From Byssothecium circinans (Eukaryota > Ascomycota > Dothideomycetes > Pleosporales > Massarinaceae), in contig ML977039.1 of the NCBI GenBank assembly GCA_010015675.1, positions 27,693 through 91,692 of the forward strand: DNA of 64,000 nucleotides, written 5' to 3'. The notes beneath the pieces were generated by a model. The model saw only the letters and a list, made by a program, of their open reading frames with translations, made no database searches and was not told the DNA's origin. How positions within the stretch are numbered: the stretch's first letter is position 1; every line of letters starts with the position of its first letter. Position numbers and translations under genes: made by a program. This document shows positions 33,903 to 60,250 of this stretch, piece after piece.

Positions 33903-33912
33903 AAAAAAAAAA
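33903..33912 (-). terminator. Pol III terminator of tRNA-Thr
   Basis: Run of ten T on the minus strand, 40 nt beyond the tRNA 3' end, of the kind that stops RNA polymerase III. Confidence 0.75.
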
Positions 33913-33952
33913 GGAGCGCTCTACCACCGGTGGTGGAATAAGCAGAATCCAA

Positions 33953-34092
33953 GGCCCACAGGCGGAATCGAACCGCCGATCTTCTCATACCGCGAAGGTT
34001 CTCATTACTAGTGAGACGCTATACCTACCATACCAGTCAGTGAATACCAAATCCAATTGGACGGAGCTCGCTCACCACTTAGCCATGCGGGC
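33953..34092 (-). tRNA. tRNA-Thr(AGU) with two inserts
   Basis: Acceptor GCCCGCA pairs with TGTGGGC. D stem GCTA/TAGC, anticodon stem TCTCA/TGAGA with loop CTAGTAA (anticodon AGT), variable loop AGATC, T arm GGCGG-TTCGATT-CCGCC. Removing two segments leaves exactly 72 nt with every stem paired (one G-U). Insert 1 (34075-34025, 51 nt) is in the D loop: it begins GTGAGC, has CACTGAC near its 3' end and ends GTAG. Insert 2 (34005-33989, 17 nt) is at the standard 37/38 intron position and begins with ATGAGAA, which also begins the 3' exon. Box A TGGCTAAGTGG (34085-34075) and box B GGTTCGATTCC (33974-33964) are intact. The discriminator base is C, unusual for Thr. It is either a functional doubly split gene or a disrupted copy. 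Confidence 0.85.
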
Positions 34093-34588
34093 GACGTTCA
34101 ACTTTGATGTCTGAATTGTTGTGAGAATGTGAATTTAATTTTTTTATATACCCACAAAAAGTCATCTCGACTAAGCTCTCGTCTTACAGTCCACCCTTTG
34201 AAGCGTCATTTTGCCGAGGTGCGGGGCCGAGAACCATTACACACAGATACTTGTCTCCCGTGTGGTGGAAAACTAGGATACAAATAAAGGCTCTCACTGT
34301 AGACACCGTAAGACCTATCCAAGAGGGATATAGCCCCTAGAACTTTACTTAGAAGATAAGCTCTTGCTATCTCAAGAGTAAGGTTAGGCAGCTGCGCTAC
34401 ATCCTACTTTTCGTACAACAAGAGTCTGTACTATTAAGTAAGCTTGCACCATTTAGTACAGAGAAGTAATAGTTATAAACGATTAAGTACAGATATAGGT
34501 TCCAAGGTTGTCAATTTGGACGTTGTCGTTGTATAGCGAATAACAAGACTTATACATACCACAAGGAGGAGTCCATAGATTACAGCGC
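34093..34588. other. Intergenic with family B repeat
   Basis: Region upstream of the tRNA gene and downstream of the DLH-like gene. It carries an AT tract (34135-34155) and family B copy 2. CATACCACAAGGAG at about 34555 echoes the TACCACA edge of family C. Confidence 0.6.
34325..34405 (+). repeat. MITE-like repeat family B, copy 2 (81 bp)
   Basis: Ends GGGATATAGCCC and GCGCTACATCCT; same length and order as 28464-28544. Similarity to copy 3 continues about 17 bp to the left (AGACCTATCCAAGA). Confidence 0.75.
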
Positions 34589-57719: not shown

Positions 57720-60250
57720 ATGGCCACCACTCCCGCCGACTCGTCCGAGACGGCGAAGAAGCGAAAGCACCGCGGCGGCAAGAAGCGACGCAACCGGCGG
57801 CAGTCGTTCGCTGCCCCCGCCGAATCTCTCGACGCCGGCAACGTGACGGACCAGGCACGCCCAAGCCTAGCCACCATCGCCGACCAGCCTTCGCGCGGCA
57901 GCTCCAGCTTCTACCGGCTGCGCTCAAAGCGTAGCAATGACAGCCTCGAGAGCGAGGCGCTGCTGGACCACCGCGCCCAGCCGCCCTCGCTGCAGACACG
58001 CCGCCCGAGCATGCAGACGCAGATGCAGATGAGCACGCCCCAGCGCCGAAATGCCCCGTATGGCTTTGGCCGCTCCAACCTCTCCCATCAGCAGCGTACG
58101 ACCGACAGCGACGGCGACAGCGATGACAACGATAACGACGCTGATGACCACACTCCGCTGATGGGCGCATCAACACACGACGTGCGCGCCGGCGGCAGCT
58201 ACGGCGGCACCAGCAATCTGTCGAGCGGCATGCGAGTGCCCCAGTTTGCCATGCAGCACCACTCGCAGACCAACCTCGACGACTACGACGTCAACAACCC
58301 GCCGTCGGTGCCTGCCAGCCCCATCCTCGGCCCCGACACTACCTATGGCGATGTCATGCTTCCCGCCGATATGGGCACTGACATATCGCCCCTAGGAAGC
58401 AGGAACAGGTCCCGCGATGTGCTCATCGACATCGGCGAGGAGCCTGTTTCGCAGCCCAACTTCGAGTCCTTCGGGTCGGTGTCGGCTTCGCCGCCCACGC
58501 CAGCCGATTTCCGACGCCGCATGACGATGCCCGCCGCTGAAGACGTGTGCTTCCCGCAGGAAGGCATGTCGGAAATTGGGCATGAAGACTACCTGCATCG
58601 ACAAGACGGCGGGGATTCGCGCGGCCGTCGGCGCCGGCGCCGTTGGCCTGATCTGGGCGCCCTGGAGGCATGGTCGCACGAGGAGAAGGAGCAGCGCACC
58701 ATTGAGGGCATGCGAGCCCGCAAGGTGAGCGAGCCGTTGATGGTAGAAGGCCGGCTGCGGCCGCAGAAACGCCCATGGCACAGGGATGCTGAGGACGCCC
58801 CGTACCGCTTCACCTACTTCAACGAAGAGTTTGAAAACACCATCCACAGCCAGACCATCAGCGAGCTTGTCCAGCCGGGCCAGACATTCCGAAATCTCTT
58901 CATTCCCGATCCTCCCATCATTGAGGACAGCACCGACGACGAGACCGACACCGACGATGGAACCACGCTCGAGCGACCAAGCATGAACGGCCTCTCGCAC
59001 CCCGGAACACGCATTCCCGCCAAATTAGATCCCAAGCAGACTTCTTCTAGGGAGCAGACACGCTCCAGCACTCCTAGTCGTACACCCACACCACGGCCGG
59101 GATATGAAAAACCGAAGCGTTATGGACCGCGACCTGCGTTCTGGTTGGATGTGCTTTCGCCCACAGATGCTGAGATGAAGGTCATTGCAAAGGCGTTTGG
59201 CATACACCCGCTAACAGCAGAGGACATCATGATGCAAGAACAGCGCGAGAAGGTCGAGCTTTTTAAGCACTACTACTTCATCAACTATCGGACTTTTGAG
59301 CAGGACGAGAACAGCGAAGACTACCTCGAGCCCGTCAACCTATATGTTGTAGTCTTTCGCGAAGGCGTGATCAGTTTCCACTTTTCGCTTACGCCACATC
59401 CGGCCAACGTGCGTCGTCGCATCCGCCAGCTTAAAGACTATCTGATTCTGTCACCAGACTGGATATCGTATGCAATCATTGATGACATCACCGATGCCTA
59501 TGCGCCCCTCAGTCAGCGAATCGAAGAAGAAGTTGACGATATTGACGAGGCCATCCTTCGGTCTTACTCCAATGACGGAGAGCAGGAAAGCAGAAAGCAG
59601 AGCTCGTCATTGTTTAACAATCCGCTCTATGAGAAAGAGCCGGATGAAAAGGCAACCAAAGAAGGCGGGAGAGATATGCTTCGCCGTGTAGGCGAATGCA
59701 GGAAGAAGGTCATGAGCCTTTATCGCTTGCTAAGTACAAAAGCGGACGTAATCAAAGGATTTGCGAAGAGATGCACCGAGCAGTGGGAAGTTGCGCCTCG
59801 CAGTGAGATTGGACTGTATCTGGGCGATATACAAGATCACATTGTCACCATGACTGCTAATCTGAGCCATTATGAGACGCAAGTGATAAGCTTCAAATTG
59901 GTTGACATCCACTGACAGCCTGCAGGCTACTATCTCGCGCACACAGCAACTATCTCGCACACGTCAATATCCGCATGAATGAGCGACAGGAGAAGACGTC
60001 AGATATTCTCGGTAAACTCACGGTGATGGGCACCATTGTCCTGCCGATGAACGTGGTGACCGGTATTTGGGGCATGAATTGTAGGAACACTGCTCTCATT
60101 GACCGCATGAAGTGTGACTGACACCTGGCAGGTCTCGTACCAGGCCAAGACATCGAGAACTTGAACTGGTTTTGGTGCATCACATCTGGGTTACTTCTCT
60201 TCGGGCTTCTATGCTATCTCATTGCGAAGCGTGTGTACGGTATCGTTTGA
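57720..60250 (+). CDS. CorA-family magnesium transporter (Mnr2/Alr type)
   Basis: Magnesium channel/transporter of 810 aa, vacuolar or plasma membrane. Exons 57720-59878, 59926-60080 and 60132-60250. The first intron (47 nt) has a GC donor (AC|GCAAGT) with CTGAC branch; only this keeps the frame HYE-T-LLSRAHSNYL. The N-terminal 430 residues are disordered and begin with a basic KKRKHRGGKKRRNRR block as in Mnr2. The CorA cytoplasmic domain follows (FWLDVLSPTDAEMKVIAKAF, HPLTAEDIMMQEQREK). Two C-terminal helices flank the selectivity motif GIWGMN. Mnr2-type proteins release vacuolar magnesium in yeast; assignment between Mnr2 and Alr subfamilies is moderate. Confidence 0.92.

Follow-up and report, generated by a model that had tools for sequence, protein, structure and literature searches.

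The tRNA-Thr(AGT) gene of the window

The stretch of DNA analysed here, from Byssothecium circinans (Pleosporales, Dothideomycetes), is 64,000 nt in its whole length (hereafter the window) and carries a tRNA-Thr(AGT) gene on the minus strand (34092..33953), which is interrupted at two places. The features of the gene, all on the minus strand, are as follows.

34132..34150, minus strand: TATA-containing AT run TATATAAAAAAATTAAATT, ending 39 nt upstream of exon 1
34076..34092, minus strand: exon 1 GCCCGCATGGCTAAGTG, with the acceptor 5' strand, the D stem 5' strand and the D loop to G18
34075..34085, minus strand: box A TGGCTAAGTGG, ending in the G with which the insert starts
34025..34075, minus strand: putative 51-nt intron of spliceosomal type (GTGAGC...CTGAC...GGTAG) between G18 and G19 in the D loop
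34036..34040, minus strand: CTGAC, the predicted branch site, with the branch A 12 nt before the intron end
34006..34024, minus strand: exon 2, G19 to A37, with anticodon AGT
33989..34005, minus strand: canonical tRNA intron at 37/38, 17 nt
33953..33988, minus strand: exon 3, position 38 to discriminator C
33964..33974, minus strand: box B GGTTCGATTCC
33903..33912, minus strand: T10, probable Pol III terminator, 40 nt past the tRNA

The original prediction of a 51-nt D-loop insert on the minus strand was borne out: the insert runs from 34075 to 34025, starts with GTGAGC, contains CTGAC and ends in TAG (TTCACTGACTGGTATGGTAG / CACTGACTGGTATGGTAG at its 3' end), and is followed by GTATAGC. Its ends can slide over four equivalent positions that give the same product, GT..AG being one of the four. 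Without the insert and the 17-nt anticodon-loop intron the tRNA measures 72 nt, counting the discriminator, and its fold of minimum energy is a full cloverleaf, as had been claimed for the doubly excised gene, whereas the minimum-energy fold with the insert retained is not a cloverleaf. Box A and box B are intact at the level of the gene and the T10 run is present at 33912-33903, again in keeping with the earlier description.

The removal of nuclear tRNA introns is generally assigned to a dedicated endonuclease, and most of them lie at 37/38; the window insert lies at 18/19, not at this endonuclease-class position. A length of 51 nt is too short for a group I or II intron, and such a self-splicing intron was rejected as an identity for the insert, no ribozyme core being indicated by an Rfam scan of the window, which gave no match at gathering scores. 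ARAGORN reported a 97-nt tRNA-Thr at 33952-34048 with its start inside the insert; thus tRNA finders can miss or misread such genes, as this program and the Rfam scan did here.

Comparison with mRNA introns of the same contig

A small yardstick for mRNA introns came from two annotated B. circinans proteins, whose spliced alignment to the DNA, with GT/GC..AG assumed, provided four introns:

Window 59879-59925, CorA-like gene: GCAAGT..CTGAC..CAG, 47 nt, GC-AG, implied by the annotated protein
Same contig as the Thr gene: GTAGGA..CTGAC..CAG, 51 nt
Same contig as the Thr gene: GTAAAG..CTGAC..CAG, 47 nt
Same contig as the Thr gene: GTGAGT..CTAAC..TAG, 140 nt

In donor, branch, acceptor and length the Thr insert resembles these protein-gene introns, which argues for the mRNA-type intron reading first proposed for it. 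The CorA-like ORF of the window matches a B. circinans protein with 100% identity over 97% of its length; among other named species Massarina eburnea follows, at 80%. The fungal branch consensus is given as RCTRAY, 6-36 nt from the acceptor, and most U3 introns have GTRWGT donors and YAG, according to the account of U3 snoRNA introns in PMC5832005.

Survey of tRNA genes in the genome

The genome (48.4 Mb, 109 contigs) was surveyed by an Rfam tRNA search (44 matches, with 63 of 1497 candidates scored) and by box B patterns followed by a T run: GGTTCGANNCC then T5 gave 91 raw matches at 61 places (reversed pattern, 11 raw matches), GGTTCAANNCC then T5 gave 17 raw matches at 14 places, and GGTTCGANNCC then T4 gave 37 raw matches (control, 27). 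All 44 Rfam matches, all 61 places of the first pattern, 12 of the 14 places of the second and the T4 set except for 11 of its 37 members that were unlike tRNA by eye were taken forward, making 98 short regions in total, of which two surround U2 matches. After exclusion of the six SINE-like regions L025-L030, a box-B anchor was present in 90 of the 92 others, and 94 anchors were fitted to the cloverleaf, with a fit score of at least 28.5 defining an accepted gene.

Fifty-three tRNA genes were fitted, of which 37 require at most a canonical intron and 16 call for one or two extra excisions (17 in total); no remaining anchor gave a fit over 26.6 (fits being listed from 26 up). As the survey set is incomplete and favours an intact box B, 16 of 53 is not an unbiased fraction, and the survey yielded no gene for Met, Trp, Tyr, Phe or Lys(TTT). 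The 17 GT/GC-AG introns lie in the acceptor stem and in the D, variable and T regions; for the 16 that lie outside the window, the positions come from a fit that itself gives 37/38 to a canonical intron.

Thr(CGT) L013: 3/4
Pro(CGG) L064: 3/4
Arg(ACG) L023: 4/5
Arg(CCT) L024: 16/18 (GC-AG)
Thr(AGT), window gene: 18/19
Arg(CCG) L044: 18/19
Arg(TCT) L063, two introns: 18/19 (GC-AG) and 26/27
Ala(CGC) L104: 20/21
Val(CAC) L037: 21/22
Ser(GCT) L014: variable arm, joining making a TTCG-capped arm (by eye)
Thr(TGT) L017: 50/51
Lys(CTT) L015 and L046: 52/53
Asn(GTT) L041 and L083: 52/53
His(GTG) L016: 52/53

The Arg(TCT) gene has a 19-nt canonical intron as well, and the first pair of the anticodon stem is mismatched in Val(CAC) and in His L016 (by eye). 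The GT/GC-AG introns are 48-64 nt long (n=17), against 6-33 nt for the canonical anticodon-loop introns (n=44) and 47, 47, 51 and 140 nt for the four mRNA introns of the two protein genes. The GC-AG introns among them have a precedent among those four contig mRNA introns.

Splice motifs and controls

When the cloverleaf was fitted without any motif (93 anchors), 16 anchors reached a score of 29 with a gain of 4.5 through some excision, and the leading end pair was GT..AG, at 15 loci; the next, TA..GG, a pair produced by a one-base slide of a GT..AG insert, was counted at 7 loci. For 3 of the 16 genes the best excision in this fit was not GT/GC..AG; another placement was about one point better for Val(CAC) and Ala(CGC), and Arg(TCT) needs two excisions. 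In several other genes GT/GC..AG was one of many ties.

With GT/GC..AG alone required (94 anchors), 15 loci gained at least 4.5 points and reached 28.5. At these loci, which were selected on GT/GC..AG, and with ties averaged, the donor G[TC]NNG[TC] was found in 13.0 of 15 (background 0.127), CTRAY in 14 of 15 (background 0.068) and YAG in 15 of 15 (background 0.420), the background being drawn from 11,368 segments of 45-65 nt from 23 loci of 3 kb. This test is fairer than a tally over all 17 introns (donor 17/17, branch 16/17, YAG 17/17), because the excisions in the tally were pre-selected by a pattern that already required a donor, a branch-like motif and YAG. Where CTRAY is present (16 of 17) the branch A lies 9-12 nt from the intron end; the L023 intron lacks CTRAY and has CTAAA. 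None of the 44 canonical introns could be read as GT/GC..AG.

Short motifs, together with several inserts that can slide by a few bases or be placed otherwise, might be expected if the resemblance were due to chance or to an assembly artefact. Against this, none of 600 block-shuffled controls reached 28.5 (best, 26.4), the sequence upstream of the T arm having been shuffled in 3-nt blocks (controls of 230 nt, real fits up to 300); donor and branch motifs at the 15 loci are far over background; and two intronless counterparts (described below) provide empty sites. We therefore give this explanation almost no weight.

Another possibility is that the inserts are ectopic tRNA introns like those of red algae and Archaea, which the tRNA splicing endonuclease would cut at bulge-helix-bulge (BHB) motifs. 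In Cyanidioschyzon merolae, introns have been described in the D loop and the T loop (PMC3978253), and three of the four central BHB pairs could be formed at 8 of the 17 junctions. The full 4-bp central helix was found at none of the 17, a weak test given that only 3 of the 44 canonical introns pass it, and the BHB test was dropped as a discriminator for that reason. Endonuclease cutting leaves GT/GC..CTRAY..YAG unexplained, as it does the difference in length from the canonical introns, and we regard it as very improbable.

The reading that we favour, with a probability of roughly 0.88 judged from sequence features, takes the window insert for a U2-type spliceosomal intron hosted by a Pol III tRNA gene; at least 17 introns of this kind would be present in 16 tRNA genes. 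Pol III would transcribe the Thr gene from the TATA run, box A and box B, and the spliceosome would recognise GTGAGC, CTGAC and TAG in the pre-tRNA and join G18 to G19. The 37/38 intron would be taken out separately by the tRNA splicing endonuclease and ligase, a route of removal that is established for this class of intron.

Promoter elements in the interrupted genes

No intron (0 of 17) lies inside positions 8-15. The introns at 18/19 have their first G in the place of G19 in box A, while in Arg(CCT), with its intron at 16/18, the gene-level box A ends in C instead; those at 52/53 have their last G in the place of G52 in box B, an observation that is biased by the search pattern. Survival may have been limited to spliceosomal-type introns that kept both boxes readable.

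The three acceptor-stem introns push box A down by 51-56 nt, and the genes that carry them have TATA-containing AT runs 28, 41 and 36 nt before exon 1, although in plain genes the distances of such runs vary widely and these three values fall within their range. A TATA-containing AT run within 90 nt upstream was present in 43 of the 53 fitted genes, as well as in L023 and L024 when longer sequence was used, a count made without a background control. Together these features give a hint, and no more, that transcription starts before exon 1 in the genes with acceptor-stem introns.

Intronless sister genes

The spliced window tRNA, used as a BLAST query against the genome, matched three places: the window gene itself, a Thr(AGT) gene (L012, C4:606407) and a Thr(CGT) gene (C37:142635). 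The Thr(CGT) gene has an insert of its own in the acceptor stem, where GCC is followed by GTAAGT...TTGCTAACAGCAAGTAG and then by CGCATGG. The second Thr(AGT) gene has no D-loop insert, which answers the question raised at the outset of whether other genes with this anticodon lack it, and its mature sequence is identical to that of the window gene at 71 of 72 positions, the single difference being the discriminator (C in the window gene, A in the sister). A second empty site is provided by Arg(ACG), for which an intronless gene (L047) is identical at 72 of 72 positions; between His L016 and the intronless His gene only 51 of 71 positions agree.

The existence of this sister bears on the possibility that the window gene is a dead copy, in which an intron landed and which is no longer matured, with tRNA-Thr(AGT) being supplied by the sister. 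The discriminator C instead of A would agree with this, as would the T run of the window gene, which lies beyond the distance allowed by the GGTTCGANNCC and T5 pattern, the gene not being listed by that search. On the other hand, the mature sequence is otherwise that of the sister, the gene retains its AT run, box A and box B as well as its canonical intron, and the same type of intron occurs in Asn(GTT) and Ser(GCT), for which the search gave no other gene. We consider a dead copy unlikely. The original prediction had named such a case, a dead gene with others supplying the cell, as its refutation: for the window gene this stands in part, given the intronless sister and the discriminator C, but it fails for the class, whose 16 genes include those for Asn(GTT) and Ser(GCT), found only interrupted.

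Essential tRNAs found only in interrupted genes

A spliced tRNA-Asn(GTT) query matched two places in the genome, both interrupted (at 52/53 by the fit), and a spliced tRNA-Ser(GCT) query matched one, interrupted in the variable arm. Further copies are likely, though not provably, absent, because the first look of the search is limited. It is established that only Asn(GTT) reads AAY codons in eukaryotes, and only Ser(GCT) reads AGY codons. Since no other tRNA reads these codons, removal of the introns should occur, unless intronless copies were missed by the assembly or by the search. Among the 53 fitted genes, nine more anticodons were present only in intron-bearing genes (Lys CTT, Thr CGT, Thr TGT, Arg CCT, Arg CCG, Arg TCT, Val CAC, Pro CGG and Ala CGC).

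Exons are identical beside differing introns in the Lys pair (73/73) and the Asn pair (74/74), which would fit either selection on the spliced product or gene conversion. Some essential tRNAs of B. circinans thus probably need the mRNA splicing machine. On the gene content described here, we think it quite likely that the spliceosome is obligatory for tRNA maturation in this fungus, with all Asn and Ser AGY decoding, and perhaps that of nine more anticodons, depending on the removal of mRNA-type introns from Pol III transcripts; Arg(TCT) would need two spliceosomal events in addition to endonuclease splicing.

Origin of the introns and comparison with known systems

Introner-like elements are a source of intron gain in Dothideomycetes, among the relatives of this fungus, and are recognised by many near-identical copies. 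In this the tRNA introns differ from them: only the window copy of the window intron was found in the genome, by which an introner-like family was ruled out for it, and the other 16 introns were compared among themselves only. In pairwise alignments of all 17, only the two Lys introns beat every shuffle (18.0 against a maximum of 14.0), and the two Asn introns did not beat shuffled controls. The Lys and Asn pairs could be either old insertions that diverged while the exons were kept, or cases of the same site being hit twice.

Insertion recurs at two G/G sites, 18/19 (3 introns) and 52/53 (5 introns), which would be consistent with reverse splicing, the route put forward for U6, as the mode of insertion. 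Reverse splicing into tRNAs, or some other form of mRNA-type intron gain, is probably how the spliceosomal-type introns arrived. The fungal U6 snRNA, also a Pol III product, has introns that are spliced in fission yeast and thought to have arisen by reverse splicing (PMC10484740, in its treatment of U6). The similarity lies in an mRNA-type intron within a short structured Pol III RNA; the differences from what is described there are that the host is a tRNA, that many genes and sites are involved and that most of the genes also have a 37/38 intron.

In fungal U3 snoRNA, introns are described as GT-AG (rarely GC-AG) with RCTRAY and YAG, and intron-bearing and intronless paralogs coexist in some genomes (PMC5832005, in its sections on these introns). 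The same signals and the same coexistence of intron-bearing and intronless copies are seen here, but the U3 introns described are almost wholly in one stem-loop, whereas those of B. circinans are spread over the acceptor, D, variable and T regions of many tRNAs. Spliceosomal introns of ascomycete rDNA (Bhattacharya 2000 and Cubero 2000, as cited in a passage of PMC11889510) are likewise mRNA-type introns in a structural RNA, although in rRNA rather than tRNA.

Introns away from 37/38, with several in some genes, are described for tRNA genes of C. merolae, the Guillardia nucleomorph and Archaea in the relevant parts of PMC3978253 and PMC4090602. Those of C. merolae are attributed to BHB motifs, while many Guillardia introns form no defined BHB (PMC3978253); the B. 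circinans introns differ in having GT-AG and a branch site, none being so described in those texts. The word stem 'spliceosom' does not occur in the tRNA-intron review PMC4090602, and no earlier report of spliceosomal introns in tRNA genes was found in a search of open-licence full texts.

In this single genome tRNA genes seem to harbour spliceosomal introns at many sites. If this is true, tRNA supply would be tied to spliceosome activity, and splicing would have to act on Pol III transcripts, which lack the links to the cap and the Pol II tail that mRNA has. The identical exons with and without introns, together with the recurrent 18/19 and 52/53 sites, form a natural set with which intron gain by reverse splicing could be tested.

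Other small RNA and tRNA-like loci

No intron was found in the full-length U6 gene of the B. circinans genome. A 5'-truncated U6-like copy (L091, C14:277874-277936) lies near it on the other strand; it was tried as an intron-split U6, but no 5' exon was found within 3 kb and it is most likely a pseudogene. U2 was rejected as a further host, since the best four matches span 194, 194, 198 and 205 nt against a model of 192 positions, leaving no room for an intron; a fifth U2 match is partial.

Two close relatives (L036, C4:183676-184121; L065, C18:251936-252382) are tRNA-like with inserts of about 44-46 nt near the anticodon; considered as intron-bearing tRNAs, they fell below the 28.5 cut-off with a poor fit to both intron types and were excluded from the count. 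In another tRNA-like sequence (L079, C40:94248-94701) the acceptor strands match and the D loop contains a GTAAGC..TTGCAG segment; one or two excisions give no good fit, and the locus could hold several introns or be a broken gene.

The SINE-like regions comprise five related AT-rich tRNA-like sequences with a common downstream sequence (L025 and L027-L030; C20:654169, C2:1722567, C13:318886, C18:721612 and C22:601128) and one that is similar in kind (L026, C98:22455), probably members of a tRNA-derived SINE family of which some copies look RIP-mutated (by eye). Two further related tRNA-like sequences (L020, C43:364649; L021, C10:772867) each have a second box-B-like stretch close behind.
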